NCBI RefSeq assembly: GCF_002019695.1
Contig: NZ_KV917376.1
Coordinates: 278,118 to 342,117 of the forward strand
Direction of reading: 5' to 3'
DNA length: 64,000 bases
Source: Evansella clarkii
GTDB lineage: Bacteria; Bacillota; Bacilli; Bacillales; Salisediminibacteriaceae
The stretch's first letter is position 1; each line of letters opens with the position of its first letter. This document shows, piece by piece, positions 4,406 through 21,517 of this stretch. The notes under the pieces were generated by a model. It was not told where the DNA came from. It saw nothing but the letters and a program-made list of their open reading frames with translations, and did not search any database. Position numbers and translations under genes: made by a program.

Positions 4406-5200
4406 TCACTCTGAAACTGATATCGACACTACACCTAGACCATCAAAGGCAGCAATCACGGAATCACCAGCATTTATTGTAATTGCTTCAGACATTGCTC
4501 CACTTAACACTATATCACCTTTTTTAAATCCTCTTCCTCTTTTGGCAAGACTTCGTGCTGCCCATACCATTGCTTTTAAGGGATGCTCTAGAACAGCTGC
4601 ACTTGAACTTGTCTGTTCAACATATCCATTTTTACTCATAACCATCCCTATATTCCCCAAATCCAGAGACTCAGGCAACACTAACTTACTTCCAATTATA
4701 AATTTAGCTGAGGAACAATTGTCAGCAATAACATCAACAAGTTTAAATCGAAAGTCCTTATATCTGCTATCGATAATTTCCAGAGCTGGGGCAACATACT
4801 TCGTTCCTCGCAAAATATCTTCTTCCGTTATATTTTCCCCCTGGATATCTTCACCAATCAAGAATGCTATTTCCGGCTCGACTTTCGGGTGTATTAATTC
4901 AGAAAAGCGAATCGGCTCCCATTCATATGCAAGCATATCAGCATGTAAATATCCATATATAGATTCATTTACACCCATCATTTTTTGTTTCGCTTTACTT
5001 GTTAATCCTAATTTTATCCCGGCTGTTTTTGTATTTTTTTCTTTAAGCCGTCTTTCAAGCAACCCATCCTGCAGTTCATAGGCTTGACTGATTGTCAATT
5101 CAGAATGTTCATCCGTAATTTTAATAACTTCATGAGCATCTCTTTCAGCATACAGCAAGTATTCGATTATGTCTTTATCCGTACTTGTTTTCAATGTCAT
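4406..5200 (-). CDS. 4-oxalocrotonate decarboxylase-type enzyme, copy 2 (last gene of the anthranilate operon)
   Basis: About 264 residues. The motif IKLGLTSKAKQKMMGV, followed by IYGYL and then HPKVEPEIAF, places it with the decarboxylase branch and with the copy at 2049-2822. In this pathway it would decarboxylate 2-oxo-3-hexenedioate formed after deamination of 2-aminomuconate. I chose the ATG at 5200 because GGTGGAGGTG lies directly upstream and it is one base after the aldolase stop; longer frames run back into the aldolase gene. Decarboxylase and hydratase branches are related, so individual assignments are less certain than the family. Confidence 0.8.
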   Translation of the reverse strand: MTLKTSTDKDIIEYLLYAERDAHEVIKITDEHSELTISQAYELQDGLLERRLKEKNTKTAGIKLGLTSKAKQKMMGVNESIYGYLHADMLAYEWEPIRFSELIHPKVEPEIAFLIGEDIQGENITEEDILRGTKYVAPALEIIDSRYKDFRFKLVDVIADNCSSAKFIIGSKLVLPESLDLGNIGMVMSKNGYVEQTSSSAAVLEHPLKAMVWAARSLAKRGRGFKKGDIVLSGAMSEAITINAGDSVIAAFDGLGVVSISVSE

Positions 5201-5201
5201 G

Positions 5202-6230
5202 CTACACCTCCACCCTCTTCTCCTTTGCCAGATTAGCTGCCACATCTAAAATCATATCTTCCTGACCGCCTATAACTTTCAATCTTCCAAGTTCCATTAA
5301 AATATCCCGGGGATCAACTCTAAATCGTTTGCCTGCTTTTTCTGCATGGAGCAGGAAGCTTGAATAAACCCCTGCATATCCGAGGGCCAGGCTTCCTTTT
5401 TTGATTTCCTGCGACCCTTGAAGAAGAGGACCTACTACATCTTCAGCAAGATCCATCATTTTATAAATATCAATCCCCAAATCATAGCCCATCCTGTCTA
5501 ATACAGCGAGCAATACTTCTGTCTGTGTATTGCCTGCTCCTGCACCGAGACAGCGGACACTTCCATCAATTCTTGTTGCGCCTTCTTCAATAGCAGCAAG
5601 TGTATTTGCTACAGCGACGGAGAGATTATTATGAGCATGGAATCCTACTTCTATCGATAGATTCTCAGCTAGAGCACGGACACGGTCCCTGACTTCATCT
5701 GGAAGTAATGCTCCCGCAGAGTCCGTAACGTATACCGCCTGTGCTCCGTAACTTTCCATTAATTTAGCCTGCTCGACTAATTTTTCCACAGGGACAGAAT
5801 GGGCCATCATTAAAAAACCAAGTGCCTCCATTCCTGCTTCCCTTGCATAATTTATATGCTGGGCGGATACATCTGCTTCCGTCACATGGGTCGCAACCCT
5901 GACGAGACTCGCTCCACGATTTTTCGCTTCTTTTAAATCATGTATCGTGCCAATGCCAGGCAAAAGGAGAACGGCAATTTTAGAGGTTTTCGCTTCTTCA
6001 ACTGCAGCCTCAATCAGCGCCAATTCATCAACGAGTGACCTTCCGTACTGTAGTGTCGAGCCTCCCAGTCCATCTCCATGGCTCACTTCGATGTAATGCA
6101 TTCCCGCATCGTCCAGTGCCCTTGTTACATCCCTGACCTGTTTTTCTGTAAATTGATGTGAAACCGCGTGGCTTCCATCACGTAATGATACTTCAGTAAA
6201 TTTAATATCTTTACCTTTTTGTTCCGTCAT
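5202..6230 (-). CDS. mhpE: 4-hydroxy-2-oxovalerate aldolase (DmpG/MhpE-type)
   Basis: This 342-residue class II pyruvate aldolase splits 4-hydroxy-2-oxovalerate into pyruvate and acetaldehyde. The N-terminus has the family motif SLRDGSHAVSHQF (about residues 16-28, with the catalytic Arg-Asp and His), and the metal-binding VGFHAHNN lies near residue 196. The C-terminal part, about residues 280-342, is the communication domain that docks the acetaldehyde dehydrogenase and tunnels acetaldehyde. The gene for that partner ends 23 nt upstream. The stop lies one base from the start of the decarboxylase gene. Confidence 0.93.
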   Translation of the reverse strand: MTEQKGKDIKFTEVSLRDGSHAVSHQFTEKQVRDVTRALDDAGMHYIEVSHGDGLGGSTLQYGRSLVDELALIEAAVEEAKTSKIAVLLLPGIGTIHDLKEAKNRGASLVRVATHVTEADVSAQHINYAREAGMEALGFLMMAHSVPVEKLVEQAKLMESYGAQAVYVTDSAGALLPDEVRDRVRALAENLSIEVGFHAHNNLSVAVANTLAAIEEGATRIDGSVRCLGAGAGNTQTEVLLAVLDRMGYDLGIDIYKMMDLAEDVVGPLLQGSQEIKKGSLALGYAGVYSSFLLHAEKAGKRFRVDPRDILMELGRLKVIGGQEDMILDVAANLAKEKRVEV

Positions 6231-6253
6231 TGGATTACTCCTCTCATTCGAAA

Positions 6254-7132
6254 TTACGATACGGTATTTAATTTACGTGCGAAGTCCTCGCCAACTTTCT
6301 TTGCAGCCGCAGTCATAATATCTAGATTTCCTGCATAAATTGCAAAATAATCCCCTGCGCCTTCCACTTCAACTAAAATCGTCACTTTATTACCGTCAAA
6401 CAGGGGCTCTTGTTTTAAATGGTAGCCCGGTACATATGATTGAACGGTTTTCACCATATCGTGAATGGCTTTACTAATCTTTTCTTCGTCTAAGTTTTTC
6501 ACTTCACAATAAATTGTATCTCTCATCATAATTGGAGGATCGGCTGGGTTTAGAATGATAATCGCTTTCCCCTGATCTGCCCCGCCGACTTCCTCAATGC
6601 CCCGTTTTGTGGTAATGGTAAATTCATCAATATTTGCTCTCGTTCCAGGTCCGGCACTGGCACTTGAAATCGTCGCGACTATTTCCGCATACGTGACATC
6701 CGCCACTTCATTAACCGCATGAACAAGGGGAATAGTTGCCTGACCGCCGCATGTAATCATATTTACATTATCATACTCTTTGTTCTCTTCCGGCTGCCCG
6801 ACTGCCGGACAAAAGAATGGACCTACTGCAGCGGGAGTTAAATCGATCACCATCTTACCAAGCTCTTTTAAAACTTTCGCATGTTCGATATGAGCTTTTG
6901 CCGATGTGGCGTCAAAAAATAAATCAGCGAGGTCCGGATTGTCAATAACTGCCTGGATTCCATTTACAAAAGTTTCGTAGCCTTTTTGCTGAGCTCGTTT
7001 AATTCCATCAGAATCCGAATCAATTCCTATCATAGCTGCCAATTCAACAACATCGCTGTTTTCAAGCTTATACATTAGGTCGGTACCAATATTACCACTG
7101 CCTATGATTGCGGCTTTTACCTTTTCCATCAT
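6254..7132 (-). CDS. mhpF: Acetaldehyde dehydrogenase, CoA-acylating (DmpF/MhpF-type)
   Basis: The 292-residue enzyme turns the acetaldehyde released by the adjacent aldolase into acetyl-CoA with NAD+. The dinucleotide-binding glycine motif [11 protein letters not shown] lies at residues 9-19, and the catalytic cysteine is in [12 protein letters not shown] near residue 129. Length and order match DmpF, which forms a substrate-channelling heterotetramer with DmpG. This is the exit step of the pathway into central metabolism. Confidence 0.94.
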
Positions 7133-7170
7133 TTACCCCTCTCTTTCGTTAGCCTTTTACAGCCTTAAAC

Positions 7171-7950
7171 TTACTTAAAAACCACTCTCACTGTGCCAAG
7201 CTGTCCAAAATCTGCTTCAACCTTATCATCTTTTGTAACAGGAACGGCAGCAGACAGGGCTCCTGGTAAAATTAATTCTCCTTTTTTCAATTCAATATTA
7301 AAATCAGCGAGCTTATTGGCGAGCCAGGCAATTGCTTCCGCCGGGTGACCGAGGACCGCGGAACCTGAACCTGTTCCGACAATTTCATTATTCTTTCTCA
7401 AAATCATCCCATTGGAACGCATATTGATTTCATTTAAATGTATTCTGTCATCTCCAACGACCACCTTGGCACATGAGCCATTGTCCGCCACTGTATCCTC
7501 GAGTTTAATTTTCCAGTCCGCAATACGGCTGTCAATGATTTCGATTGTTGGCACAACATAATCCGTTGCCATAAGTACATCCAAATATGTAATATTTGGA
7601 CCGGCCAGATCTTCATTCAAAACAAAACCTATCTCTGCTTCCACTCTTGGCGCAACCAATGAATCAATGTGCACCGTTCCACCATTCTTGACTTTCATCC
7701 CTTCAAAGAGGTGGCCATAGTCCGGCTCCTTCACGCCTAACATATCCTGCATTGCTTTACTAGTTAACCCAACTTTTTTCCCAATGACTCCTACGCCCCG
7801 CTCTTCTTTCAGTTTCACAGTTTCAAGTTGTATATGGTAGGCGTCCTCAACCGACAATAATGGGTCACGTTCTGTAAAAGGCTGAATTCCTTCTGTTTTC
7901 TCCTCTGCTTCCTGAAGTTCTATTGCATAATTCAATAGTTTTAAAGACAT
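7171..7950 (-). CDS. 2-hydroxypenta-2,4-dienoate hydratase (MhpD/XylJ-type), copy 2
   Basis: With the start at 7950 the product is 259 residues, the same length as its paralogue at 2894-3673, with matching motifs (GKKVGLTSKAMQDMLGV then EPDYGHLFEGM). I preferred this ATG (MSLKLLNYAIEL) to one 17 codons upstream because GAGGGT precedes it and the paralogue begins at the same point. It hydrates 2-hydroxypentadienoate within the anthranilate operon, between the semialdehyde dehydrogenase and the acetaldehyde dehydrogenase. Confidence 0.83.
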   Translation of the reverse strand: MSLKLLNYAIELQEAEEKTEGIQPFTERDPLLSVEDAYHIQLETVKLKEERGVGVIGKKVGLTSKAMQDMLGVKEPDYGHLFEGMKVKNGGTVHIDSLVAPRVEAEIGFVLNEDLAGPNITYLDVLMATDYVVPTIEIIDSRIADWKIKLEDTVADNGSCAKVVVGDDRIHLNEINMRSNGMILRKNNEIVGTGSGSAVLGHPAEAIAWLANKLADFNIELKKGELILPGALSAAVPVTKDDKVEADFGQLGTVRVVFK

Positions 7951-8058
7951 CGAGCTACCCTCACTCTCCCTTGCGAGAAATTTAAAATAACAAGACGCCA
8001 TTCAGTTTAGGAGTAAATGGCGTCCTAATCAAACATTGAGCAAACGATTAACCGGGAT

Positions 8059-9534
8059 TTACTTTTTTATCGTAATTGTTTTAGCTTCTGAATAAAATTC
8101 AAAGCTGTGCCTTCCCCCTTCACGTCCGATTCCACTCGCTTTCGAACCTCCAAAAGGTGTGCGTAAATCTCGGACGTACCAGCAATTGACCCATAACAGT
8201 CCGGAATCGATGGAAGAAGTTACCCTGTGGGCTCTTCTTAAGTCATTTGTCCAGACCACTCCCGCAAGTCCGTAAATCGAATCATTCGCTATATTTATTG
8301 CTTCTTCTTCAGTTTTAAAAGGAATGATGACTGGAACAGGACCGAAGATTTCTTCCTGTGCTACCCGCATTTTATTGTCTACATCGTATAAAACAGTAGG
8401 CTTATAGAAATTTCCTTCTTCAATTCCTTGCGCTCTTTCTCCCCCGTAAGCAAGCTTTGCTCCTTCATCAAGTCCGATTTGAACATAATTATCTACAGTT
8501 TCCAGATGGCTTTTTGATACAAGAGCCCCCATATCCGTCTTCTCATCCATTGGATTGCCCACTTTTATTTGCTTGACGGCTGCTGTAAATTTATCAAGAA
8601 ACTTGTCGTAAATACTCTCTTGTACGAGAATCCGTGAGCCAGCCAGACATATTTCCCCCTGGTTGCGGAAAATTGCTTCTATGGATCCTTCTACCGCTTC
8701 ATCTAACTCAGCGTCTTCAAATACAATATTTGCAGATTTTCCACCAAGCTCTAAGGAGACTGGGATAAGGCTTTTTGCGGCGTTTTCCATCACTGTTTTA
8801 CCAGTTTCCGTTTCGCCGACAAATGATAAACGGCGAACGTTTGGATTTGTCGCCATTTCTGTTCCCACCACACCCCCAGGACCGGTAATTATATTTAATG
8901 CCCCGGGAGGGAGACCCGCTTCATTAGCTATTTCCCCTAATTTAACGGCACTTAATGGCGTGTAGGATGCTGGCTTCACAACAACTGTATTCCCGGCAGC
9001 AAGCGCGGCGGAAGCTTTCCATGTCATCTGCATGAACGGTAAATTCCAGGGAATAATGAGACTCGTAACCCCGGCCGGCGCATACTGAGAAAATGACATA
9101 AATTTACTCATGTCATAATGTTCCTGAGTCATATATTTGGCCAATTCTGCGAAAAATCTGAAATTGGAAGCCGCCCTTGGGATATCAAAATCTCTGCTTT
9201 CCCTAATCGGCTTTCCAACATCCATTGTTTCAATATAAGCAAGCTCATCCACCTTCTCAAGAATCAGGTCGGACATTCTGCATAAAATTTCGGATCTTTC
9301 TTCAACCGGCATTTTACTCCATACACCGCTTTTAAATGTCCTTTGAGCCGCGTCAATTGCCCGCTTCGTATCAACTTCATCTGCACTGGCTACCTGCGCC
9401 AGTACTTGATTGTTTGCCGGATTAATAGTTTCAAATGTTCTTTCGGAATGAGCATCCACATATTCCCCGTCTATAAATAGTTTTGCATCTTGTAAACGCT
9501 TTTGATTAGAAATTAATTCCTTCGCCACCGTCAT
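8059..9534 (-). CDS. 2-aminomuconate semialdehyde / 2-hydroxymuconate semialdehyde dehydrogenase
   Basis: This 491-residue NAD-dependent aldehyde dehydrogenase shows Asn164 in IIPWNLP, Glu262 in LELGGKS and catalytic Cys296 in NQGEICLAGS. The C-terminus (GIGREGGRHSFEFYSEAK) is typical of hydroxymuconate/aminomuconate semialdehyde dehydrogenases such as DmpC, XylG and NbaE. In this operon it should oxidise 2-aminomuconate 6-semialdehyde, the product of the decarboxylase at 9999-11018. The other aldehyde dehydrogenase of the window (18206-19702) lacks this C-terminal signature. Confidence 0.88.
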   Translation of the reverse strand: MTVAKELISNQKRLQDAKLFIDGEYVDAHSERTFETINPANNQVLAQVASADEVDTKRAIDAAQRTFKSGVWSKMPVEERSEILCRMSDLILEKVDELAYIETMDVGKPIRESRDFDIPRAASNFRFFAELAKYMTQEHYDMSKFMSFSQYAPAGVTSLIIPWNLPFMQMTWKASAALAAGNTVVVKPASYTPLSAVKLGEIANEAGLPPGALNIITGPGGVVGTEMATNPNVRRLSFVGETETGKTVMENAAKSLIPVSLELGGKSANIVFEDAELDEAVEGSIEAIFRNQGEICLAGSRILVQESIYDKFLDKFTAAVKQIKVGNPMDEKTDMGALVSKSHLETVDNYVQIGLDEGAKLAYGGERAQGIEEGNFYKPTVLYDVDNKMRVAQEEIFGPVPVIIPFKTEEEAINIANDSIYGLAGVVWTNDLRRAHRVTSSIDSGLLWVNCWYVRDLRTPFGGSKASGIGREGGRHSFEFYSEAKTITIKK

Positions 9535-9540
9535 TCCCCC

Positions 9541-10002
9541 TTAGTCTTCAACTTCAACGATTATTTCTATTTCAATCGCTGTGTTATTCGGCAGTTGAGC
9601 CATACCTACTGCTGAGCGTCCATGCTTCCCCTTTTCGCCGAATACCTCGCCTAACAGATCCGAGGCGCCATTTGCCACAGCCGGCTGCTCCGTAAAATCT
9701 TCAGTGGAATTTACCATAACAAGGAGTTTCACAAATTTATTTACCTTGCTTAAGTCTCCTAATTCATTTTTGACTACAGCCAACAGGTTCAGCATCGATT
9801 GCCGGGCTGCTAAATAACCATCTTCGGTTGTCAGTTCACGTCCCAGTTTGCCGTGATACTGATCAACACCTTGCCCTGCTGTAAACAGCAGGTTTCCCGT
9901 CCGCACACAACTTATATAATTACCGACGGCAGGACGCAGCTCAGGGAGTTTCAGCCCAAGTTCCTCCAGCTTATCTTCCGGGCTTTTCACTTGACTATTC
10001 AC
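9541..10002 (-). CDS. RidA/YjgF-family protein, probable 2-aminomuconate deaminase
   Basis: A 153-residue RidA-fold protein (TAGQGVD near residue 42, RSAVGMAQLPNNTAIEIE near the end, with the conserved Arg). It sits between the ACMS decarboxylase (4-nt overlap) and the aminomuconate semialdehyde dehydrogenase. RidA-fold enzymes act as 2-aminomuconate deaminase in 2-nitrobenzoate (nbaF) and aminophenol pathways, and this is the step that position requires: 2-aminomuconate plus water gives 4-oxalocrotonate and ammonia. A general enamine-detoxifying RidA role is the alternative, less likely inside this operon. Confidence 0.8.
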   Translation of the reverse strand: MNSQVKSPEDKLEELGLKLPELRPAVGNYISCVRTGNLLFTAGQGVDQYHGKLGRELTTEDGYLAARQSMLNLLAVVKNELGDLSKVNKFVKLLVMVNSTEDFTEQPAVANGASDLLGEVFGEKGKHGRSAVGMAQLPNNTAIEIEIIVEVED

Positions 10003-11018
10003 TTGCCAATCACTTCCCTCACATCAACATTTAAGAATTCCAATGCATTCATCCCTAATATTCTTTTTTTGACACTGTCCGAGAGTTCCACTGTTTCATC
10101 AACAACTTTTCCAGGCGGAATTTCTCTTAACAGGAATGGATAATCTGATCCCATCACAATTTTTTCATAGCCAAAGCGTTCGATTAAGTAGTTTAAATTT
10201 TGCGGATCATAATTTAATGAATCAAAGTAAAAGTTCTTCGCATAGTAGCTTGGAAGTTCGCTCGTTTTCCGAAGATGCGGCCAAACTTTCCAGCCTTGAT
10301 CCAATCTCGGCAAAATGTAAGGGAATGAACCTCCCCCGTGGGCAAAACATACCTTGAGATTCGGGAACTGCTCTATAACCGCCCCGCATATCAGACTGGC
10401 GGCGGCAAGTGCCGTTTCACTTGGCATACCGACCGTATACATGAAATTATGACGGGGCATTCTTTCCCTGCCCAAAGTTTCCCATGGATGAACAAACAGA
10501 GGTACCTGCCATTCTTCCGCTTTTCTGAAAAACTCGGTAAATGCAGGATCATCCAGGTTTTTCCCATTTATATTCGTTCCGATTTCAATTCCCTTTAAAC
10601 CAAGCTCTTTTACGCATCTTTCCATTTCACGAATCGAAACATCCACGTCCTGAAGCGGAACAGTCCCAAGCCCGATAAATCTATCCGGATTATGTTTAAC
10701 GGTTTCGGCAATAAAATCATTCTGAATTTTAGCCATTTCTTCGGCCGCTTCTGGTTTCGCCCAATAAGAGAAAGTCACAGGAATGGGCGACAACACTTGA
10801 ATGTCGACGCCTTCCCTGTCCATATCCTCAATCCTTTTTTCCGGACTCCATACCTGATCCGTTACCTCACGGAACACTTTTCCATCAACCATAATGTTTG
10901 CTCCGCATGAACATGTTTTTTCCAGTGTAGGCCAGCGTCCTCCCCCATACTTTTCTGCAAAATCAGGAAGGCTTTCAGGAATAATATGAGTATGGAAATC
11001 TACTCTTACATCCTTCAT
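9999..11018 (-). CDS. 2-amino-3-carboxymuconate-6-semialdehyde decarboxylase (ACMSD)
   Basis: This 339-residue amidohydrolase-fold decarboxylase has the zinc motif HTH at residues 9-11, a third ligand His177 (FVHPWE), His227 (FAHGGG) and the metal Asp292 in MGSDYPF, all characteristic of ACMSD. It removes CO2 from the ring-cleavage product of 3-hydroxyanthranilate, giving 2-aminomuconate 6-semialdehyde and diverting the intermediate from quinolinate formation. It overlaps the dioxygenase gene by 4 nt and the RidA gene by 4 nt, so the enzymes are translationally coupled. Confidence 0.95.
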   Translation of the reverse strand: MKDVRVDFHTHIIPESLPDFAEKYGGGRWPTLEKTCSCGANIMVDGKVFREVTDQVWSPEKRIEDMDREGVDIQVLSPIPVTFSYWAKPEAAEEMAKIQNDFIAETVKHNPDRFIGLGTVPLQDVDVSIREMERCVKELGLKGIEIGTNINGKNLDDPAFTEFFRKAEEWQVPLFVHPWETLGRERMPRHNFMYTVGMPSETALAAASLICGAVIEQFPNLKVCFAHGGGSFPYILPRLDQGWKVWPHLRKTSELPSYYAKNFYFDSLNYDPQNLNYLIERFGYEKIVMGSDYPFLLREIPPGKVVDETVELSDSVKKRILGMNALEFLNVDVREVIGK

Positions 11019-11563
11019 TTAACTTCCTCCGGGGTCCATTCTTTGACTTCTTCAGGCATAACATGGCCGCAGTGATCGCAAGTTCTCAAATCTTTGCTGG
11101 CATTAAATTGATTAATCGCTTCCTTTAATTGTGTCGCAATATCTGTGAGCTCCAATGTGACACGGTGCATTTCATGGTTACAGTTATCGCAATACCACAC
11201 CATGTGCTCCTTAATTCCCTCACCTCTAGGCTCTTCTATAACCATTCCAATCGTATCGGCAATCCTGTGAGGGGAATGCGGCACATTAGCCGGGAGCATG
11301 AAAACTTCTCCTTCTTTAACAGTTACGACTTCCCGTTCTCCCTCATCGTTAATGATTTCAACAAAGCAGTCGCCTTTAATCTGGTAGAAAAACTCTTCTG
11401 CCGGGCTGATATGAAAATCGCGGCGTTTGTTAGGACCGCCTACCATCATGACAATCATGTTTGATCCTGGGAACATTTCCTTATTATTTACCGGCGGCTG
11501 AAGCCTGTCCTCATTCTCCTTAATCCAGCCTTGTAAACTAACTGCATTAAATTCTCTAGCCAT
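11015..11563 (-). CDS. nbaC: 3-hydroxyanthranilate 3,4-dioxygenase
   Basis: About 182 residues, a cupin-fold extradiol dioxygenase. The iron ligands His51, Glu57 and His96 are visible (DFHISPAEE; NVPHSP), with substrate-contacting Arg47. The C-terminus carries two CxxC pairs (Cys125/128 and Cys162/165), the rubredoxin-like iron site found in bacterial but not animal enzymes. It opens 3-hydroxyanthranilate to 2-amino-3-carboxymuconate semialdehyde, the substrate of the next gene. I used the ATG at 11563 (MAREFNAV) because GGAGGT lies 7 nt upstream. Confidence 0.95.
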   Translation of the reverse strand: MAREFNAVSLQGWIKENEDRLQPPVNNKEMFPGSNMIVMMVGGPNKRRDFHISPAEEFFYQIKGDCFVEIINDEGEREVVTVKEGEVFMLPANVPHSPHRIADTIGMVIEEPRGEGIKEHMVWYCDNCNHEMHRVTLELTDIATQLKEAINQFNASKDLRTCDHCGHVMPEEVKEWTPEEVK

Positions 11564-11587
11564 TTCTATTACCTCCAATTTTATTTT

Positions 11588-12106
11588 TTACAGAAGAGGG
11601 ATTGCCTGTTCCATCTTCCCTTCTGAAATCAACTGTCTAATCCGCGTAGACGAAATCCGTTCACCGTCTGCACAGCATACCGGGCGGATCGTCTCCACCT
11701 TAAAATAATCTCTCAGCATATTTACATCTCCCGCCCTTTTATAACCAAACTTAAAGTCTTCACCAACGATAATATGGCGGGGGTTCATGTTTTTTAATTC
11801 ACAGATAAAGGAAAAGGCGGATCTGTTTAAATACTCCCTATTGAACTTAGCAACAACTACGTAATCGACTCCAAGCTCCCTTATTTTCTCAATCTTTTCT
11901 TCATAAGGAAGAAGAATCCGGGCCTGTTGAAAATAAACACGCGGCGAGGGAGAGAAGGTATAGATCACACTCGGAACACTAAGCTTTGCTGCTCTTTCGA
12001 CCGTACACCTTATTACTTCCTGATGTCCTTTATGAATTCCGTCAAAGGCGCCGATCGCCATTGCAGACCCTTCAAGCTTAAAATTGTGAGAATGATGGAC
12101 TTGCAC
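11588..12106 (-). CDS. Stand-alone FAD synthetase (RibF N-terminal domain only)
   Basis: The 172-residue product is the nucleotidyltransferase half of RibF-type riboflavin kinase/FAD synthetases: AIGAFDGIHKGHQ (ATP-binding HxGH) near residue 18, VGEDFKFGYKRAGD near residue 118 and SSTRIRQLISEG near residue 150. The C-terminal riboflavin kinase domain is absent, so it should adenylate FMN to FAD but not phosphorylate riboflavin. It lies directly after the HpaB-type monooxygenase gene, which uses FADH2. As I recall, an FAD synthetase was reported as a functional part of the anthranilate hydroxylase of Geobacillus thermodenitrificans NG80-2; the same arrangement here supports that activity. Confidence 0.87.
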   Translation of the reverse strand: MQVHHSHNFKLEGSAMAIGAFDGIHKGHQEVIRCTVERAAKLSVPSVIYTFSPSPRVYFQQARILLPYEEKIEKIRELGVDYVVVAKFNREYLNRSAFSFICELKNMNPRHIIVGEDFKFGYKRAGDVNMLRDYFKVETIRPVCCADGERISSTRIRQLISEGKMEQAIPLL

Positions 12107-13966: not shown

Positions 13967-13973
13967 CGTGACT

Positions 13974-13990
13974 ATCTCATAATATGAGAT
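13974..13990. promoter_or_regulatory. Palindromic operator candidate upstream of the anthranilate promoter
   Basis: ATCTCATAATATGAGAT is a perfect inverted repeat (8-bp arms around one base), centred about 51 bp upstream of the predicted start site and just outside the -35 box; further TGAGA/TCTCA half-sites follow it. An activator site is the natural reading. The 17-bp odd spacing does not fit the Crp/Fnr geometry seen at 21581, so a different regulator, perhaps the IclR protein at 23104-23859, may use it. Confidence 0.5.
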
Positions 13991-14102
13991 TTAATTAAAT
14001 TTTCTCAAATTTTTGAATTTACTTTTTTATATGAAAGGAAATATAGTATTAATAAGTGACTAACAGGAGGGGGGGCCGCACTTTCTATAAGCTATTCAAA
14101 AA

Positions 14103-14145: not shown

Positions 14146-14249
14146 TAGTATAATTTTTTGGTTTTACAGGCTATTTTATAGTCTCTGTCCCCAGCAGCCC
14201 ACGCTGTAATGAAACCGAGTTCTTCTAAGATTTTCGAGAATTTTAAGGC

Positions 14250-15041
14250 TTATTTTTCCACCAGAGCCATTACCCGCGCAGGGCTTCCACTTCCACCTTC
14301 TATTTTTAAAGGACTCGCTATTACTATTGACCCTCTTGGAGGAAGCTTATCTAAATTTGTCAGGGAAGCTAAACCGTATTTATTTGCTCCATGCAGGAAG
14401 TAATGATTCGGAAAAGGCGGATCAAATGCAGCTGCTAATCCAGCATCCGTACCTACTGTTTCAACACCCACGCCGAGAATATTTTTCTCATTGGCCAAAA
14501 ATTTCGCCGCTTCCACGGTCGTCCCAGGTGTGTGAGGATGGCCGTCCTCTCCCACATTAAAAAACTTCTCATGATCATCGTTATACCTGGCCCAGCCTGT
14601 ATAAATCAGCACCCAGGAATGATCTGGAATTTCTCCGTATTTCGCTTCGAATGCTTCAATATCCTCAATCTTGAGACAGTAATCCGGATCTGCCTCGCAC
14701 TTATCTGCTATATCAATAACACAACCTTCGCCAATCAGCTTTTTTGCCGGAATCTCATCAACGTGTTGGTAGTCCTTCCCGGATATCCAGTGCACCGGCG
14801 CGTCGAAATGAGTTCCGCAATGTTCTCCCATGGATATATTATTCCAGAAAAAGAAAGGGCCGTTATCGTCATACTTTGATATTTGTTCCTTTTTGAAGCC
14901 TTTCGTATCAACAAATGGATCGGGCAGAGAGATTATGGGAGTTTCTTCATTCAATACGTGCGTCAAATCCACCACTTCAATTGAGTTGTCCCTTAACTTA
15001 TTCACCACATCTGTTAATACGTTTTGGTTTAAAGATTTCAT
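14250..15041 (-). CDS. Cyclase-family metal hydrolase, probable isatin hydrolase (alternatively arylformamidase)
   Basis: The 263-residue protein has the metal-binding motif HCGTHFDAPVH (His74, His78, Asp80, His84) of the cyclase / kynurenine formamidase / isatin hydrolase family. Bacterial KynB proteins are about 210 residues; at 263, with the extended C-terminal LKIEGGSGSPARV block, this one is closer to isatin hydrolase. Isatin hydrolase opens the lactam of isatin to isatinate (2-aminophenylglyoxylate). The same operon encodes a ThDP decarboxylase and an aldehyde dehydrogenase that could carry isatinate to anthranilate, and no tryptophan dioxygenase is seen here. The substrate is inference. 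Confidence 0.72.
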   Translation of the reverse strand: MKSLNQNVLTDVVNKLRDNSIEVVDLTHVLNEETPIISLPDPFVDTKGFKKEQISKYDDNGPFFFWNNISMGEHCGTHFDAPVHWISGKDYQHVDEIPAKKLIGEGCVIDIADKCEADPDYCLKIEDIEAFEAKYGEIPDHSWVLIYTGWARYNDDHEKFFNVGEDGHPHTPGTTVEAAKFLANEKNILGVGVETVGTDAGLAAAFDPPFPNHYFLHGANKYGLASLTNLDKLPPRGSIVIASPLKIEGGSGSPARVMALVEK

Positions 15042-15081
15042 TATACTTCTCCTCTCCGTCTAATAGAATTTCACTGATTTT

Positions 15082-16398
15082 TTACGTATGCATAATTTGT
15101 GGAAGCCAAGTCGCTATGGACGGTACCATCATAACGATTGCCAAAAGTACAAATAGAAGAATGATGAAAGGCGTAGAAGCTCTGTAAATTTCCATCATTG
15201 TCGTACCTTCTGGAGCAACCCCTTTCATAACAAACAATCCCAGACCAAAAGGTGGGGTTATTTGACCAATTTCAATAGCGATTAACAGTAATACAGCAAA
15301 CCATAACAAATTAACATCCAGCACTTCTGCCAACGGGAAATAAATTGGGACAGATACCATCATTATTGAAAGTGATTCCATAAACATGCCCAGAAACACA
15401 ATAATAAGCAACATCATAATGACAATCGCAATAGATGGCAGTTCAAACGAGCTGACAAGAGCCACCAGATTACTTGCTATACCTGTAAAAGACAAAATTT
15501 GGCTGAATGCAATAGACCCAGCTACTATCATTAAAATCATTGCTGTCAGCTTTAACGTACCTGCCAATGATTTAATTAGAATTTTCAGATTCATTTGCCT
15601 GTATACGGCCGCTAATATAAAACTGCCCAGCGCACCCATTGCAGCCGCTTCTGTCGGTGAAGCAATCCCTAAAAAGATGGAACCGATAACTAAAAGTATA
15701 ATAATACTAAGTGGAAGAATATACATCATCGTATCTTTCAGTCTTTCAGGCATAGATACAGGAGCAACAGTATATCTTGGTGTGAAATCAGGACGGAGTT
15801 TAACTATTGTAATGATATAAACTATAAACAACAATGCCATGACCAATCCCGGCACAATAATCGCTATTAAGAATTGTCCAACTGAAATTTTTCCCAGTGA
15901 AGCAAGTAACACACCTAATGCGCTAGGTGGTATCATGACAGCCAGTCCCCCGCTTGCTAATATAGGGCCAATCGACATTCTTCGGTCGTATTTTTTCTTT
16001 TCCATTTCCGGAACCAGTGTTGAACCAAGCATAGCCGTGGTTGCCATTGTTGAGGCTGTTAAAGTTGATAATAAAGTTCCCCCGCTTACCGCCAGCAGAC
16101 TTAATCTTCCAGGTATATTACCTAACCATTTGTCCAGCGTATTCAGCATTTTTGGTGCCACACCGGAATGGAACATAATTTCTCCCATTAAAATAAATAA
16201 TGGGATCGGAACAAGAGTAAAGGTTGTTAATGAACTTTCTATACTATTAACTAACAACTTTAAACCTTCTTCACCATTCCAGAAAATAAAGGTTGCAACA
16301 ATATTAACGATTAAAAAAGCAAATGCTACCGGAACTCTAATAAACATTAAGGTGAATAAACTTAGCAGTATGATGATCAATATAAGCCACCAATCCAT
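15082..16398 (-). CDS. TRAP transporter large permease, DctM family
   Basis: About 438 residues with 12-13 membrane segments and the DctM patterns PIPLFILMGEIMFHSGVAP (near residue 60) and a later GQITPPFGLGLFV. It is the ion-coupled translocating subunit of the carrier with the DctQ and DctP proteins encoded just upstream. I placed the start at 16398 (MDWWLILIIIL) because GAGGGGAG lies 6 nt before it; the frame extends 16 codons further but without such a site. The 158-nt gap after dctQ is unusually long for this kind of operon. Confidence 0.92.
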   Translation of the reverse strand: MDWWLILIIILLSLFTLMFIRVPVAFAFLIVNIVATFIFWNGEEGLKLLVNSIESSLTTFTLVPIPLFILMGEIMFHSGVAPKMLNTLDKWLGNIPGRLSLLAVSGGTLLSTLTASTMATTAMLGSTLVPEMEKKKYDRRMSIGPILASGGLAVMIPPSALGVLLASLGKISVGQFLIAIIVPGLVMALLFIVYIITIVKLRPDFTPRYTVAPVSMPERLKDTMMYILPLSIIILLVIGSIFLGIASPTEAAAMGALGSFILAAVYRQMNLKILIKSLAGTLKLTAMILMIVAGSIAFSQILSFTGIASNLVALVSSFELPSIAIVIMMLLIIVFLGMFMESLSIMMVSVPIYFPLAEVLDVNLLWFAVLLLIAIEIGQITPPFGLGLFVMKGVAPEGTTMMEIYRASTPFIILLFVLLAIVMMVPSIATWLPQIMHT

Positions 16399-16556
16399 AA
16401 TAACTCCCCTCGCTTGCAGTTTAGACCGCTGACTCCAAATCCGCAACGGTCTGCATGGAATGTTCAGTTTTGGAAAAAAGAGTATACAAGCACTTTAACA
16501 GATGAACGAAATTACAAGACTATTCCGAGCAAGCCACTTTCAGGAAGCCTCAACCT

Positions 16557-17048
16557 TTACAGTGCTGATTCATTAAAAGAATGAGTTAATGATCTGATAA
16601 ACTCCAGCAGCATCAAGAAAGAACCGACTGGAATAACGATATACACATAAAATTGAGGAGTTCTCAGCACTGTTGTACTGGTCACACTATTTGCCAGCAT
16701 GTCATATGTGACAAGTGAACTGTAATAAACCAATATGGCCATTGAGAGCACTCCAAGTATTGCTACAATGATTTTCAATATTTTAGAAGAGCCTTTACTT
16801 ATAATGTTATCAATCAGGTTAATAACAACATGGCCATGATTGCGTAAAAGCCAGGCTCCAGCCAAAAATGGAATATATAATAATAAATATTCATTATACT
16901 CTTGCACCCAGACAAAGGAGCGGCCTGTCATATTGCGCCTTATGATTTCTACTACGATGGTGATCATGGAAACAAAGATTAAGGTTCCGGCGATTATAGC
17001 TAACATATCTTCTATTTTTGTCAGACACTTACCAAGCCAGTTCATCAT
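16557..17048 (-). CDS. TRAP transporter small permease, DctQ family
   Basis: A 163-residue, four-helix membrane protein with the DctQ motif LLYIPFLAGAWLLRNHGHV (about residues 51-69), containing the conserved G-x-x-W-x-L-R. It sits between the binding-protein and large-permease genes. It shares little obvious similarity with the DctQ at 54-533, so the two carriers were acquired separately rather than by a recent duplication. Confidence 0.9.
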   Translation of the reverse strand: MMNWLGKCLTKIEDMLAIIAGTLIFVSMITIVVEIIRRNMTGRSFVWVQEYNEYLLLYIPFLAGAWLLRNHGHVVINLIDNIISKGSSKILKIIVAILGVLSMAILVYYSSLVTYDMLANSVTSTTVLRTPQFYVYIVIPVGSFLMLLEFIRSLTHSFNESAL

Positions 17049-17079
17049 ATTAAAGTCACCTTCAAACCCTCATTTATTC

Positions 17080-18084
17080 CTAATCTTCAGATAATAAGAG
17101 CGATTTTAATGTCTCTATTTGGTCAGGAGCATCGCGTTCCAACATCGACCAGTACACATCATCGACAATCTGCTGAAATTCCCTGGAATCTTCTTCCTTC
17201 AAAGTAATTCTTTCAATTCCTTCTTCTTCAAGCAGCTCCCATGTCTTTTCGTTCTCATTGTTAAAGTGTTCGTACATTTCTTCTTCAAATTCTGCTGTTA
17301 ATGTAATTAGTTCTTCCTGTACATCTTCTGGCAATGATTCGAATGTATCTTTATTGATCAATATTGTCCCATTCTGATTTAAAAATGGTTCGTCAACAAG
17401 ATATTGCGTAACTTCTGTCCACCCATCCTCGTATGGACCAAGCAGCGGGAACCCGAAGCCATCCACCATATTTCTCTCAAGTGATGTATATACTTCACCA
17501 GGAAGCACATCTACCGGCGTTGCATTTAAAGCCTGCAATATTTCGTGATATGTGGGATTTGACCTTATTTGTAATCCCTGAAAATCATTAATTGTACTGA
17601 TTTTTTCATTTGTCCAAAAGTAAAATGGGTTTGGTCCCAAAAACCTTCCTAAATAAACCTGGTTTTTCTCATTATATCTTTCGTTCAGAAAATCAAAGTA
17701 CCCGTTTTCTCTTTCTTCTAGAGGTGTATAAGGTGACATATGCAAAGAAAGGGTTTCAGGCATTAAGTGGCCATAAAAGGAACTCGTATTGAATCCAATG
17801 TCAACAATTCCATTACTTACGGCATTAAATTGATCAGGGGTCGGAATCGATTCAGGACCGGCCGTCCATTCAAGTTCCAGCTTCCCGTTTGTTCCTTCCT
17901 CAATCTTTTCGATCCACATCGGAATAATGTCCCTGACAAACTGGTGATTTTCCGGAAGGAAACTTACAATCTTAAGTGACGTAGAATCTGCACTGTCTCC
18001 ACTCGCTGTCGTATCTTCCCCGCATCCTGCAAGTATAAGGGAAAATATGATAATTATAAGGGGGATTACTACTTTGTTTTTCAT
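17080..18084 (-). CDS. TRAP transporter solute-binding lipoprotein, DctP family
   Basis: The 334-residue receptor begins with a signal peptide ending in the lipobox ILAGC (Cys21), so it is anchored on the outer face of the membrane. The stretch LQIRSNPTYHE near residue 168 holds the substrate-carboxylate arginine of DctP proteins. It is co-oriented with the ThDP decarboxylase, aldehyde dehydrogenase and hydrolase genes; a carboxylated arylglyoxylate or anthranilate-like ligand is the natural guess. Confidence 0.9.
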   Translation of the reverse strand: MKNKVVIPLIIIIFSLILAGCGEDTTASGDSADSTSLKIVSFLPENHQFVRDIIPMWIEKIEEGTNGKLELEWTAGPESIPTPDQFNAVSNGIVDIGFNTSSFYGHLMPETLSLHMSPYTPLEERENGYFDFLNERYNEKNQVYLGRFLGPNPFYFWTNEKISTINDFQGLQIRSNPTYHEILQALNATPVDVLPGEVYTSLERNMVDGFGFPLLGPYEDGWTEVTQYLVDEPFLNQNGTILINKDTFESLPEDVQEELITLTAEFEEEMYEHFNNENEKTWELLEEEGIERITLKEEDSREFQQIVDDVYWSMLERDAPDQIETLKSLLLSED

Positions 18085-18118
18085 ATATTTATCTATTCTC
18101 CTTTTGACTTTTCGTTTA

Positions 18119-18182
18119 ATATAGCCGGGACATCGTAGTTTGTTTTTTAAGATTGCTCTCTTAAAAACTATGTCCCGGCTAT
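18119..18182 (-). terminator. Long hairpin between the aldehyde dehydrogenase and TRAP genes
   Basis: ATAGCCGGGACAT at the left and ATGTCCCGGCTAT at the right form the base of a long stem, with a further TTTTTAAGA/TCTTAAAAA inner arm. It sits in the short gap between two genes of the feeder operon, with no long T run after it. It could be a partial terminator or an RNA-processing/stability hairpin that sets different levels of the enzymes and the carrier. Confidence 0.6.
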
Positions 18183-18205
18183 TTGTAACCTATTACATTA
18201 TATTT

Positions 18206-19702
18206 CTACAAAAACGTCCCATAAGGCGGCCGCTTATAGGCAGCTACTATTGTTTTTGACTGGCTGTAGGAGTCAAGAGCTTCTTTGCTGTACTCTCTTC
18301 CTACACCGCTGTTTTTATACCCGCCAAATGGCGCCCCTGTCTGGAAGTTAAAGTAGGAGTTAATCCACACACTGCCTGCTTCCATTCTGTTGGCCACAGC
18401 CAGACCATTTTCCATGTTATCAGTCATAATACCGGCTGCAAGGCCATAGTCCACCTCATTAGCAGCTTTCACGACCTCATCGATATCTGACCAGCGCGTT
18501 ACAGTAGCTGCCGGTCCGAAAATTTCTTCCTGTGCAATCCGCATATGCGACTCTGCTTCAATGATGGTAGGTTCTATGAAATACCCATGCTCATGTCCCG
18601 GCACAGTTACCCTGTTTCCTCCATATAAAATTTTCGCTCCCTCATTTCTTGCAATTTCAAAATAATTTAAAACTCGCTTGCCCTGTTTTTCGTTAATGAG
18701 GGAAGCTAACCTGGTCGAACGATCTGTCGGCGGCCCAATTTTTATTTCCTTTGCCCGCTCGATTAGCTTATCAACAAACTCATCATAAATATCATCATGA
18801 ATGAACAAACGCGTACCAAGAATACAGCTTTCACCATTAAAGAAAGTATAGCCGAGAGTCGCATTTTCCACTGCTGTCTCGATATCAACATCGGGAAAAA
18901 TAATATGAGGTGCTTTTCCACCCAGCTCTAACGTAACTGGAAGAATTCTGTCCCCTGCCGTTCTCCCTACGAGACGGCCAACTTCAACACTTCCGGTAAA
19001 AGCAAGTTTATCTATGTCAGGGTGATCGATTAGTGCCTGTCCCGCCTCATTTCCGTAACCTGGAACCATATTGACGACACCTGGAGGCAAAATATCAGAC
19101 AGCAGTTTTCCGAATTCAATGACAGAGATACATGCATCTTCTGCCGGCTTTAGCACAATTGTGTTTCCCGCAGCGAGTGCTGGAGCAAGTTTAAAAGAAG
19201 TCATAATCATCGGGACATTCCACGGAATAATCTGTGCACAAACGCCGAGAGGTTCTTTTTTTGTAATCAAATAACCATTATCAACAGGCCGTGAATCTCC
19301 TTGATAATGTGTCAGAATCGCTCCCGCAAAATAGCGGAATTGATTTATTGCCAGCTGATAATCCAAATCAAATTCATGTATCGCTCTTCCTGTATCCATA
19401 CATTCGATTAATTTTAAACGGTCCTGGTTTTCTTCGAGGACTTCCGCAATCTTATTTAACAGAATCGACCGTTCTTCGATGGAGGTGGACGCCCAGGATG
19501 GAAAAGCAGCCCTTGCTGCTTCAACTGCTTTATCCACATCTTCTTTACCGCCGCGTCCCAGCTGCGCGAGCACTTCACCTGTTGCCGCATTCACCGAATC
19601 AAAATAACCATTCGCCGCTTCAACAATTTCTCCGTTAATGAGCGGACCGTATTGATCAGCCAATTTTAAATCAGCCACATTCGCTTTACCTATTGCTTCC
19701 AT
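18206..19702 (-). CDS. NAD(P)-dependent aldehyde dehydrogenase, probable 2-aminobenzaldehyde (arylaldehyde) oxidiser
   Basis: A 498-residue aldehyde dehydrogenase with Asn162 in IIPWNVP, the general base Glu259 in LELGGKAP and nucleophile Cys293 in NGESCILGTR. It resembles class 1/2 and aromatic aldehyde dehydrogenases, not the hydroxymuconate type encoded at 8059-9534. It follows the ThDP decarboxylase gene by 105 nt. If that enzyme makes 2-aminobenzaldehyde from isatinate, this enzyme would yield anthranilate, the entry compound of the large operon. The family call is firm; the substrate is inference. Confidence 0.85.
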   Translation of the reverse strand: MEAIGKANVADLKLADQYGPLINGEIVEAANGYFDSVNAATGEVLAQLGRGGKEDVDKAVEAARAAFPSWASTSIEERSILLNKIAEVLEENQDRLKLIECMDTGRAIHEFDLDYQLAINQFRYFAGAILTHYQGDSRPVDNGYLITKKEPLGVCAQIIPWNVPMIMTSFKLAPALAAGNTIVLKPAEDACISVIEFGKLLSDILPPGVVNMVPGYGNEAGQALIDHPDIDKLAFTGSVEVGRLVGRTAGDRILPVTLELGGKAPHIIFPDVDIETAVENATLGYTFFNGESCILGTRLFIHDDIYDEFVDKLIERAKEIKIGPPTDRSTRLASLINEKQGKRVLNYFEIARNEGAKILYGGNRVTVPGHEHGYFIEPTIIEAESHMRIAQEEIFGPAATVTRWSDIDEVVKAANEVDYGLAAGIMTDNMENGLAVANRMEAGSVWINSYFNFQTGAPFGGYKNSGVGREYSKEALDSYSQSKTIVAAYKRPPYGTFL

Positions 19703-19807
19703 ATCATATCTCCTCCACTTTCTTAATGTTTTTTTGCAGAGTGAACCTGTGCTTCTGATACTTCTTGCTTCAGCAGGAAGGCATCCCCCCTTAAAAGTTT
19801 CAGATTA

Positions 19808-21517
19808 TCAGACTTTAGGAATTCTTACATCCAATACAGCAGAACGACCATTTTTCACATGTGTTAGCGCAGTTTCCAATGCTCCCTTCACTCTTCCTGG
19901 CTCTTCTACTACTTCTGCATAAGCGTTGCCTGCAGCCTCGGCAACTTTCGCCAATTGGCTGTTCGGATTAAAGTTAATCCAAAATTGATTGGATTGTTTT
20001 GCGATCCCTTCCGGATGCACGCCTAAAGTCGAATGTTTCGGCGCGTTCCAGCCAAAATTGTTATAAATGATAGTGAGAAATGGCGTCTCATATTGCTCGG
20101 CCATCGTATGGACAACAGAAGGGACACTAAACAAATAACTTCCGTCTCCCGTTAAGCTAATCACTGTTTTATCCGGATGAGCCAATTTCATTCCGAGCGC
20201 TGCTCCTCCATTCCACCCAAGTGAACCTGCCCCGCTGCTGAAATAGGAGCCTGGCCTTGTTGCACCAATATGTGAAGTGACTACGCCATAATTAGTGATT
20301 GCTTCGTTTAAAATAATTGTATTGTCATCCATTACTTCACGGACACAAGCAGTAAGATATTCAGGGGTAATAATATCCCTGTTCAACTGTTCAGCGTTTT
20401 TTACTGCTTCCTTCATTTCCGAATGAAAGGCGGTGATCTGTTCCCGTCTTGCAGACACTAAAGACTCATCTGGTGATTCTTTCTCCAGAGCCAGATTGAT
20501 CTGTTTCAAAGCAGTTAAAGAATCTGCCTGATGAAATCGTCTGGACGGTATATACCAAAGAGGCATATCTTCTTTCAGTGGATCTGCATCAATATAATAG
20601 ATCACTGCATCTTCTGACGGCTTATTTTTCACAGGGATCCACGGGACATCACTGTCAATGGCCAGGATGACATCGGCTTTTGCCAAAACCGGGTGCTGTT
20701 TATCTTCATTCCACTGATAACCCACATGCATCGGATGGTCGGCCGGGAAATTCATTGTTTGAGGAACGGATTCAAAAACAGGTATTGCCAGCTTTTCAGC
20801 GAGTTTAACCAGCTCCTCCACCGCCGCTTCTTTTTTCCCAAGGTATGATGTGACAACCAACGGATTATTGGCTTTTAGTAAATGGGAAACCAGTTCCTGT
20901 ACGTTCTCAACCGGTAATGCACTCGGTGAGACTGGTGTCCACAAAGATGAATCTATTTCGACCCGTTCTGTTTCTTCCTCCATCGTCTCTCTCGGCCCCA
21001 TTAAGTAAACAGGGCCCTGCGGTTCGCTTTTTGAAATTTGCAAAGACCGGTGGACCAGTTGTTTCACATTTTTTCCGGTGCGGATTTCATTATCATACTT
21101 CGTGTATCCTCGCATAATGCCGCGCTGGTCATTGACATCCTGGTACCAGTGAATAAATTCATTCCGACTTCCAGTCAATTCACCTTCCTGGGTGTAGGGC
21201 GATGCGCCAGCATATACAAGAACAGGAACTTTAGCTTTAAAAGCGTTGTGAATCGCTCCTCCTAAGTTTTGTGTGCCGCACTCCACATGAACGATGACTC
21301 CCTGCGGTTCTCCGGTTAGCTGCGCATAGCCATGTGCTGCGCTCATTGCTACAAACTCATGGGGACTAATAATCACTTTCGGCAACTCTTTATTTTTATT
21401 TGCCGCATCTGTTAAGCTTTCAATTATTGCTGGATGGTCACTCCCGAAGTTTGCAAAAATATAAGAAACACCGGCCTCTTGAAGCGCTTCCAAAAATGCC
21501 GTGCTAGTTGTGTACAT
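19808..21517 (-). CDS. ThDP-dependent decarboxylase, acetolactate synthase / benzoylformate decarboxylase superfamily
   Basis: The 569-residue protein has the three-domain layout of ThDP enzymes: the N-terminal domain with His53-Glu54 (SPHEFVAMSAAHGYA; the Glu activates the cofactor), a central domain, and the ThDP/Mg motif GDG at 457-459 ending in NN at 486-487. It lacks obvious features of true acetolactate synthase such as a small-subunit partner gene. With an aldehyde dehydrogenase gene next in the operon, it looks like a 2-oxo-acid decarboxylase. Isatinate is an ortho-amino benzoylformate, so an isatinate decarboxylase role fits the neighbouring cyclase-family hydrolase. Benzoylformate or phenylpyruvate are other possible substrates. 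Confidence 0.82.
   Translation of the reverse strand: MYTTSTAFLEALQEAGVSYIFANFGSDHPAIIESLTDAANKNKELPKVIISPHEFVAMSAAHGYAQLTGEPQGVIVHVECGTQNLGGAIHNAFKAKVPVLVYAGASPYTQEGELTGSRNEFIHWYQDVNDQRGIMRGYTKYDNEIRTGKNVKQLVHRSLQISKSEPQGPVYLMGPRETMEEETERVEIDSSLWTPVSPSALPVENVQELVSHLLKANNPLVVTSYLGKKEAAVEELVKLAEKLAIPVFESVPQTMNFPADHPMHVGYQWNEDKQHPVLAKADVILAIDSDVPWIPVKNKPSEDAVIYYIDADPLKEDMPLWYIPSRRFHQADSLTALKQINLALEKESPDESLVSARREQITAFHSEMKEAVKNAEQLNRDIITPEYLTACVREVMDDNTIILNEAITNYGVVTSHIGATRPGSYFSSGAGSLGWNGGAALGMKLAHPDKTVISLTGDGSYLFSVPSVVHTMAEQYETPFLTIIYNNFGWNAPKHSTLGVHPEGIAKQSNQFWINFNPNSQLAKVAEAAGNAYAEVVEEPGRVKGALETALTHVKNGRSAVLDVRIPKV

Follow-up and report, generated by a model that had tools for sequence, protein, structure and literature searches.

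The 3-hydroxyanthranilate pathway of Geobacillus thermodenitrificans NG80-2 was reportedly described by Liu et al. in 2010. According to the accessible part of PMC4539516, the anthranilate hydroxylase gene of this strain is clustered with genes that supply flavin adenine dinucleotide (FAD), and anthranilate is degraded by meta-cleavage via 3-hydroxyanthranilate. For the steps leading to anthranilate, isatin and isatinate have been reported as intermediates in the iad auxin-degradation loci of Variovorax and Bradyrhizobium, in which IadI is annotated as a kynurenine formamidase (accessible parts of PMC9613470 and PMC12633357). In Variovorax, the authors position two compounds, C8H7NO3 and C7H7NO, after the IadI product and ahead of anthranilate; both accumulate strongly only under overexpression of the whole iadC-K2 region, and no gene is assigned to the intervening steps in the accessible part of this 2025 preprint (PMC12633357). 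By their formulas, we read these compounds as isatinate and 2-aminobenzaldehyde, respectively; the word aminobenzaldehyde is absent from the text of PMC12633357. A 2018 review, in the part accessible, does not settle what isatin and its hydrolase gene do (PMC6221969). In the literature searched, with most subscription journals outside it, neither "isatinate decarboxylase" nor "isatinic acid decarboxylase" is mentioned, and isatin hydrolase and thiamine appear together in one phloroglucinol study only, where thiamine is a medium component. In the present study, we analyzed a stretch of 64,000 nucleotides from Evansella clarkii (contig NZ_KV917376.1, positions 278,118 to 342,117; hereafter the window), in which two adjacent gene units probably constitute a catabolic island for isatin or isatinate, leading through anthranilate to pyruvate and acetyl-coenzyme A (acetyl-CoA). 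The locus offers candidate genes for both missing steps. Geobacillus already provides a known example of the anthranilate half, so only the feeder unit and its linkage appear to be new.

The feeder unit (14250-21517, minus strand) encodes, in the order of transcription from 21517 to 14250, a thiamine diphosphate (ThDP)-dependent enzyme, an aldehyde dehydrogenase, the DctP, DctQ and DctM proteins of a tripartite ATP-independent periplasmic (TRAP) carrier, and a cyclase-family hydrolase. The second unit (4406-13641, minus strand), separated from the feeder by 608 bp, comprises 10 genes running from 13641 to 4406, with an HpaB-type oxygenase first, a decarboxylase last, and intergenic gaps of -44 to 57 bp. 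Herein, we propose the following route. First, the TRAP carrier would import the acid, and the Mn-type isatin hydrolase would open isatin to isatinate (2-aminophenylglyoxylate). Second, as isatinate is an aryl-2-oxo acid, its decarboxylation by the ThDP enzyme would release CO2 and 2-aminobenzaldehyde, which the feeder aldehyde dehydrogenase would oxidize to anthranilate. Third, the adjacent unit would convert anthranilate to 3-hydroxyanthranilate, cleave the ring and yield pyruvate and acetyl-CoA. One or both of two Crp/Fnr-type regulators would switch the feeder unit, acting at a conserved operator ahead of the ThDP gene. The gene content, the placement and active-site residues of the isatin hydrolase, the linkage in four genera and the operator are read directly from the sequences, and we infer the substrates, the direction of flow and the regulation. 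All genes named in the original prediction, which held that the feeder operon makes anthranilate from isatin or isatinate and that the second operon consumes it, are present on the minus strand at the coordinates of Table 1, and the prediction itself is supported at the sequence level by the placement of the hydrolase, the affinity of the ThDP enzyme and the recurrent linkage.

By family placement and active-site residues, the hydrolase is of the isatin-hydrolase type. The closest chains in the PDB are the isatin hydrolases 5nnb, 5nna, 5nmp and 4j0n (E 5.5e-78 to 7.9e-73), and the protein is 48-50% identical to LaIHA and LaIHB from Labrenzia and RsIHA from Ralstonia, with which it has in common the metal, aromatic and GLAS/GLQC signatures published for isatin hydrolases (accessible part of PMC6117287). 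The metal motif HxG[T/A]HxDxPxH is found as H74/H78/D80 and H84, the aromatic pocket motif WxW/FxW as F64-F-W66, and the GLQC/GLAS signature as G223-LAS; D199 and H213 are also present. In the printed alignment, I37 and L39 match Ile32 and Leu34, given as substrate residues of isatin hydrolase in the accessible part of PMC10470551. In a tree of 26 rows, the hydrolase falls into an 18-row clade with LaIHA, LaIHB and RsIHA (support 91/99, below the star threshold of the tool), and the other cyclases of the genome fall outside this clade, several of those rows being long-branched. The surroundings are different, since the window hydrolase adjoins the ThDP enzyme, the aldehyde dehydrogenase and the anthranilate genes, whereas a near-identical homologue of LaIHA in Roseibium adjoins iad-like genes. 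Unlike in the iad loci, no Rieske-type IadDE genes were found among the window proteins scanned. Dihydrophloroglucinol cyclohydrolase was also considered as an identity of the hydrolase and was rejected because the substrate residues are those of isatin hydrolase.

The ThDP enzyme resembles the benzoylformate decarboxylase of the mandelate pathway in its fold, its ThDP motif and its Ser/Glu/His residues. Benzoylformate decarboxylases were the closest relatives in a sequence search against solved structures (3.8e-29), and a benzoylformate decarboxylase also led by E-value in a Foldseek search with the predicted model (1.6e-30 at 22% identity; mean predicted local distance difference test, pLDDT, 79.4). 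S26, E54 and H77 align with S26, E47 and H70 of benzoylformate decarboxylase in the printed alignment, which does not extend over the stretch with the counterpart of His281. The 21-row ThDP alignment shows no variation at E54 or H77, and the S26 position is T in some rows.

The arrangement recurs outside Evansella. One scan of the contigs of named genomes provided three comparison loci, L012-L014, from Oceanobacillus sp. Castelsardo (L012), Ureibacillus acetophenoni and Bacillus piscicola, which were selected by closeness to the window ThDP enzyme, so that their linkage is not a random sample. The ThDP enzyme, the aldehyde dehydrogenase (83-84% identical) and the isatin hydrolase (60-79%) occur together in 3/3 of these loci, with a different gene order (ThDP, hydrolase, aldehyde dehydrogenase) in B. 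piscicola. HpaB and 3-hydroxyanthranilate 3,4-dioxygenase (3-HAO) genes lie inside the 22 kb of the locus both in Oceanobacillus and in B. piscicola, and in Ureibacillus they lie just past the first locus on the same contig, in a run encoding a reductase, HpaB, an IclR-type regulator, 3-HAO, an amidohydrolase, RidA, an aldehyde dehydrogenase and a hydratase. The ThDP proteins of the window and the three comparison loci form a clade of their own (87/94, not fully supported; three of the four, 100/100). The suggestion that the feeder and the anthranilate unit form one linked route is supported by this recurrence in three other Bacillota genera. The ThDP family was found at E<=1e-100 in 14 of the 398 genomes of a class sample, the window's included, and isatin hydrolase occurred, in the stretches read at these loci, only at the window's own locus. 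In a phylum sample, 17/398 genomes had a hydrolase match at E<=1e-30 and two, one of them the window's, at E<=1e-60; among the 16 others with a match, the neighbourhoods covered were those of genomes G183, G353, G373 and G190. Of the 35 genomes from the window's own family, 1 has an isatin hydrolase match at E<=1e-60, namely that of the window.

All four isatin-hydrolase loci have a palindrome of the form TGTTAA-N4-TTAACA that begins 77-115 bp ahead of the ThDP start, without mismatch in the window and with one in each of the three orthologous loci; these values (0, 1, 1 and 1) were equalled by 0, 4, 8 and 1 of 2000 resampled sequences, respectively. As the motif was formed after reading the window sequence, the window is no independent test, whereas the other three loci are. 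The match at 21581-21596 is the sole perfect one in the window. When up to 2 mismatches are allowed, such palindromes are not rare, a scan of the whole window having returned 11 against 5.51 expected (5 of 100 shuffles reach 11). Upstream of the feeder unit lie the two Crp/Fnr-type regulators, an IclR-type regulator and a major facilitator superfamily (MFS) carrier. The best solved relative of the first Crp/Fnr-type regulator (21641-22264) is CprK (2h6c, E 6.1e-10), which senses chlorinated phenols. Relatives of the IclR-type regulator are 84% identical in L012, 46% in L014 and 48% beside HpaB in Ureibacillus.

The strongest alternative, although unlikely, is that the true substrate of the feeder is a different aryl-2-oxo acid or a mandelate-like compound (benzoylformate, or a hydroxy- or chloro-substituted form). 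The hydrolase would then open the ring of a related cyclic amide or lactone, and any flow into the anthranilate unit would be incidental or concern a substituted anthranilate. Several observations weigh in this direction or against the isatin reading. Among 30 loci of the ThDP family (29 and the window; some stretches short, down to 5.4 kb), isatin hydrolase is present in only 4, with none in 26 of the 30 stretches read, and an aldehyde dehydrogenase lies within 1 kb of the ThDP gene in 10 of these 26. Some relatives have aromatic contexts without isatin hydrolase: that of Novosphingobium capsulatum lies near a ketopantoate-reductase-like protein and catechol genes, that of genome G424 has a Rieske oxygenase and an FAD monooxygenase in its vicinity, and that of the Comamonas plasmid pBHB (L022 8475-11722, plus strand), with its aldehyde dehydrogenase, lies near reductive dehalogenase and protocatechuate dioxygenase genes. 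These counts and contexts make the PRK08327-type family look like a set of aryl-2-oxo-acid enzymes, one branch of which is tied to isatin hydrolase. Moreover, characterised benzoylformate decarboxylases are only about 22% identical to the window enzyme, which belongs to another NCBIfam family and scores 163.6 of the 493 bits of the benzoylformate decarboxylase cut-off NF005485; the B. piscicola hydrolase has GIAQ instead of GLAS and CYW instead of FxW; and the TRAP carrier is not orthologous across all isatin-hydrolase loci (24-28% in L012 and L014). However, the ThDP genes of the four isatin-hydrolase loci form the separate clade described above, adjoin anthranilate genes and have in common an operator that is absent from 18 of 18 loci of ThDP relatives without isatin hydrolase (best match, 3-5 mismatches), which argues against this alternative. 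The ThDP family occurs a second time in L024 (G000:C2:103000-122500) at 8938-10713 (minus strand), as a copy that shows 49% identity and has its own TRAP carrier; the 19.5 kb read there contain neither isatin hydrolase nor aldehyde dehydrogenase.

All 10 proteins of the anthranilate unit reach their Pfam cut-offs, and 3-HAO, the aldolase and the acetaldehyde dehydrogenase are the only ones that reach NCBIfam equivalog cut-offs; 3-HAO is found in 32/398 class-sample genomes, a figure that counts the window's genome. Compared by description with the NG80-2 cluster, as far as the source is accessible, the FAD-dependent anthranilate hydroxylase, the clustered FAD supply and the 3-hydroxyanthranilate route have likely counterparts in the HpaB-type oxygenase, the FAD synthetase and 3-HAO of the window. 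In contrast to that cluster, an isatin feeder adjoins the anthranilate unit, and whereas both a riboflavin kinase/flavin mononucleotide adenylyltransferase and an FAD reductase are present in NG80-2, the reductase of the window is only a remnant. At the DNA level, this remnant is 68% identical to Oceanobacillus L012 over 221 columns, after which the window is about 240 bp shorter; an open flavin reductase gene lies upstream of HpaB in L012 (14936-15514), and a flavin reductase match lies upstream of HpaB in Ureibacillus (L109, 2890-3330). The original prediction had called the pathway complete, and while every gene that it named is there, the decay of the local flavin reductase makes this word too strong for the present locus. 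The same decay might mean that the locus as a whole is degenerating and no longer functional for anthranilate, the hydroxylase having lost its reductase, which we regard as improbable, since all other genes of both units are open and two further PF01613 reductase genes exist elsewhere in the genome. Because the local reductase has decayed, the hydroxylase would probably receive FADH2 from a reductase encoded elsewhere in the genome.

It is less probable still that the ThDP enzyme is a carboligase or acetolactate-synthase-like, with the aldehyde dehydrogenase serving something else. An ancestral acetolactate synthase does rank eighth in the Foldseek search with a comparable E-value and a slightly higher TM-score (0.80/0.84), which counts against a decarboxylase; however, benzoylformate decarboxylases are ahead both in Foldseek E-value and in sequence (best acetolactate synthase, 1.6e-22), so that the proposed check for an acetolactate synthase relation favours the decarboxylase, and the aldehyde dehydrogenase near the ThDP gene is conserved in the three other loci. 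That the hydrolase is a kynurenine formamidase in a tryptophan-kynurenine route is scarcely credible and KynB identity was ruled out: the protein belongs to the same superfamily and weakly matches the KynB model TIGR03035, but at 28.9 bits against a cut-off of 223.05; the phylogenetic check suggested earlier placed it with isatin hydrolases and not with KynB; its motifs are contrary; the ThDP enzyme and aldehyde dehydrogenase would have no role in such a route; and tryptophan dioxygenase, a cyclase-family protein and kynureninase lie side by side (kynA-kynB-kynU) elsewhere in the genome (C1:4301287-4304072), a run that fills the KynB role and makes this function very unlikely for the window hydrolase.

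Isatin hydrolase genes are also accompanied by ThDP genes of a second, unrelated family. Such a gene follows isatin hydrolase directly in Deinococcus psychrotolerans, Deinococcus sp. KNUC1210, Rhodococcus erythropolis R138, Nonomuraea (two loci) and genome G183, and the two genes are about 4 kb apart on an Agrobacterium plasmid. Over more than 500 columns, the proteins of KNUC1210 and Rhodococcus share 20-21% identity with the window ThDP enzyme, and that of D. psychrotolerans aligns over only 73 columns. Among family members at least 53% identical to the D. psychrotolerans protein (itself counted), isatin hydrolase lies within 5 kb in 7/7 loci examined, compared with 0/3 at 43-48% identity; the hydrolase led to five of these seven loci, which are therefore biased, and the ThDP protein to the other two, from Agrobacterium and the second of Nonomuraea. 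For the plasmid records, 9 of 14 places with this family were covered (H85, H86 and H88-H90 left out). The pairs of D. psychrotolerans and G183 are accompanied by a salicylyl-CoA 5-hydroxylase/oxidoreductase-type enzyme and by an AMP-binding or benzoate-CoA-ligase-type enzyme. Both clusters look like the 2-aminobenzoyl-CoA route of anthranilate, which is named in the accessible part of PMC6221969. Two observations against a general rule should be considered. First, the nine-gene iad region of Variovorax makes anthranilate, and no ThDP decarboxylase is named there in the accessible part of PMC12633357, suggesting that other solutions exist. Second, of 57 plasmid records with a hydrolase match, 10 loci were covered, and the second ThDP family adjoins the hydrolase in four of them and not in six. 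A ThDP neighbour is thus not universal. The hydrolases of Shinella and Roseibium adjoin iad-like genes, that of Azospirillum an indole-monooxygenase-type gene, that of Burkholderia a permease, and those of Tsukamurella and Novosphingobium indolepyruvate-oxidoreductase-type genes, whose ThDP proteins may be a third answer to isatinate. Hydrolase relatives at 35-37% identity within the same phylum (G353, G373 and G190) have no second-family ThDP neighbour.

On balance, we lean towards the view that isatinate decarboxylase is a ThDP enzyme and that its recruitment to the side of isatin hydrolase occurred at least twice, out of unrelated ThDP families, feeding two anthranilate routes: the PRK08327-type in the window and the three named Bacillota, and the other family in Deinococcota, Actinomycetota, Alphaproteobacteria and one further member of the Bacillota. 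If true, this double recruitment would give genes to the orphan step from isatinate to anthranilate and add a Crp/Fnr-type aromatic sensor for it. A ThDP gene beside isatin hydrolase might serve as a marker for isatin users in several phyla. At the level of sequence comparison, a strong case for candidate isatinate-to-anthranilate genes is made by the feeder, its association with isatin hydrolase in four genera, its operator, and the occurrence of an unrelated ThDP family beside isatin hydrolase in other genomes. Minor features of these loci were also recorded. The G183 ThDP gene after isatin hydrolase (L079 7826-9473, minus strand) reads in two frames, with an IS256-type transposase nearby; a RidA gene follows the ThDP gene in D. 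psychrotolerans; and the Novosphingobium gene after isatin hydrolase (L047 9778-11910, plus strand) codes for a protein with a C-terminal ThDP-binding domain, the next gene being of the indolepyruvate oxidoreductase beta type.

Table 1. Features of the isatin/anthranilate locus in the window, with supporting matches and putative roles.
Feature	Coordinates	Strand	Match or conservation	Putative role or remark
MFS transporter	24050..25246	-	PF07690; relatives 62% in L012, 40% in L013	
IclR-type regulator, PcaR/PobR-like	23104..24000	-		possible regulator of anthranilate unit
Second Crp/Fnr-type regulator	22285..22917	-	kept in L012-L014, 38-56%	
Crp/Fnr-type regulator	21641..22264	-	PF00027, PF13545; kept beside ThDP in L012-L014, 46-59%	
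Perfect TGTTAA-N4-TTAACA palindrome	21581..21596	.		proposed operator of adjacent Crp/Fnr-type regulators
ThDP-dependent decarboxylase	19808..21517	-	NF006203/PRK08327, 706.3 bits vs cut-off 456	probable isatinate to 2-aminobenzaldehyde
Aldehyde dehydrogenase (feeder)	18206..19702	-	PF00171, 531.7 bits	probable 2-aminobenzaldehyde to anthranilate
TRAP solute-binding protein DctP	17080..18084	-	PF03480, 122.9 bits	putative ligand isatinate or similar aryl acid
TRAP small permease DctQ	16557..17048	-	PF04290, 78.8 bits	
TRAP large permease DctM	15082..16446	-	PF06808, 254.9 bits	
Isatin hydrolase, cyclase family	14250..15041	-	PF04199	isatin to isatinate, predicted from sequence
Palindrome ATCTCATA-T-TATGAGAT	13974..13990	.	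partly kept in Oceanobacillus L012	possible operator of anthranilate unit
Decayed flavin reductase	about 13660-13906	-	short, frame-broken matches to 166-aa reductase of L012	remnant of the reductase gene of the two-component hydroxylase
HpaB-type oxygenase	12154..13641	-	PF11794/PF03241; TIGR02309 452.1 of 480.2 bits	putative anthranilate 3-hydroxylase
FAD synthetase	11588..12106	-	PF06574; below NCBIfam cut-off	
3-HAO	11015..11578	-	TIGR03037 218.1 bits vs 145.95; NF009763 243.2 vs 220	
Amidohydrolase, ACMSD position	9999..11018	-	PF04909; no NCBIfam match	putative 2-amino-3-carboxymuconate semialdehyde decarboxylase
RidA-like protein	9541..10002	-	PF14588/PF01042; below NCBIfam cut-off	putative 2-aminomuconate deaminase
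Aldehyde dehydrogenase	8059..9534	-	PF00171; TIGR02299 best, below cut-off	putative 2-aminomuconate semialdehyde dehydrogenase
2-oxopent-4-enoate hydratase-like (DmpE)	7171..8001	-	TIGR03220 best, below cut-off	
Acetaldehyde dehydrogenase (acylating), DmpF	6254..7132	-	TIGR03215 450.7 bits vs 282.25	
4-hydroxy-2-oxovalerate aldolase, DmpG	5202..6230	-	TIGR03217 523.4 bits vs 286	
2-oxo-3-hexenedioate decarboxylase-like, DmpH	4406..5245	-	TIGR03218 best, below cut-off	
Tautomerase, 4-oxalocrotonate tautomerase type	1856..2044	-	PF01361 50.4 bits vs cut-off 22	possibly serves lower pathway

Several further observations concern the borders of the two units. The 608-bp gap between them contains a 19-nt perfect inverted repeat, with arms at 14102-14120 and 14128-14146. 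Downstream of the anthranilate unit, the region 54-3673 (minus strand) contains two further FAA-hydrolase-family genes (2894-3673 and 2049-2822), the tautomerase gene of Table 1 (1856-2044) and a TRAP solute-binding protein gene (557-1708). These genes might make up another lower pathway or belong to the anthranilate route; neither the tautomerase nor the flavin reductase remnant figures in the original prediction. In Oceanobacillus, a 120-aa reading frame that looks RidA-like by eye follows the isatin hydrolase gene (L012 14416-14778, plus strand). Just upstream of the MFS carrier of the window lies an arylamine N-acetyltransferase gene (25459-26226, minus strand), the product of which could protect against aromatic amines such as anthranilate.

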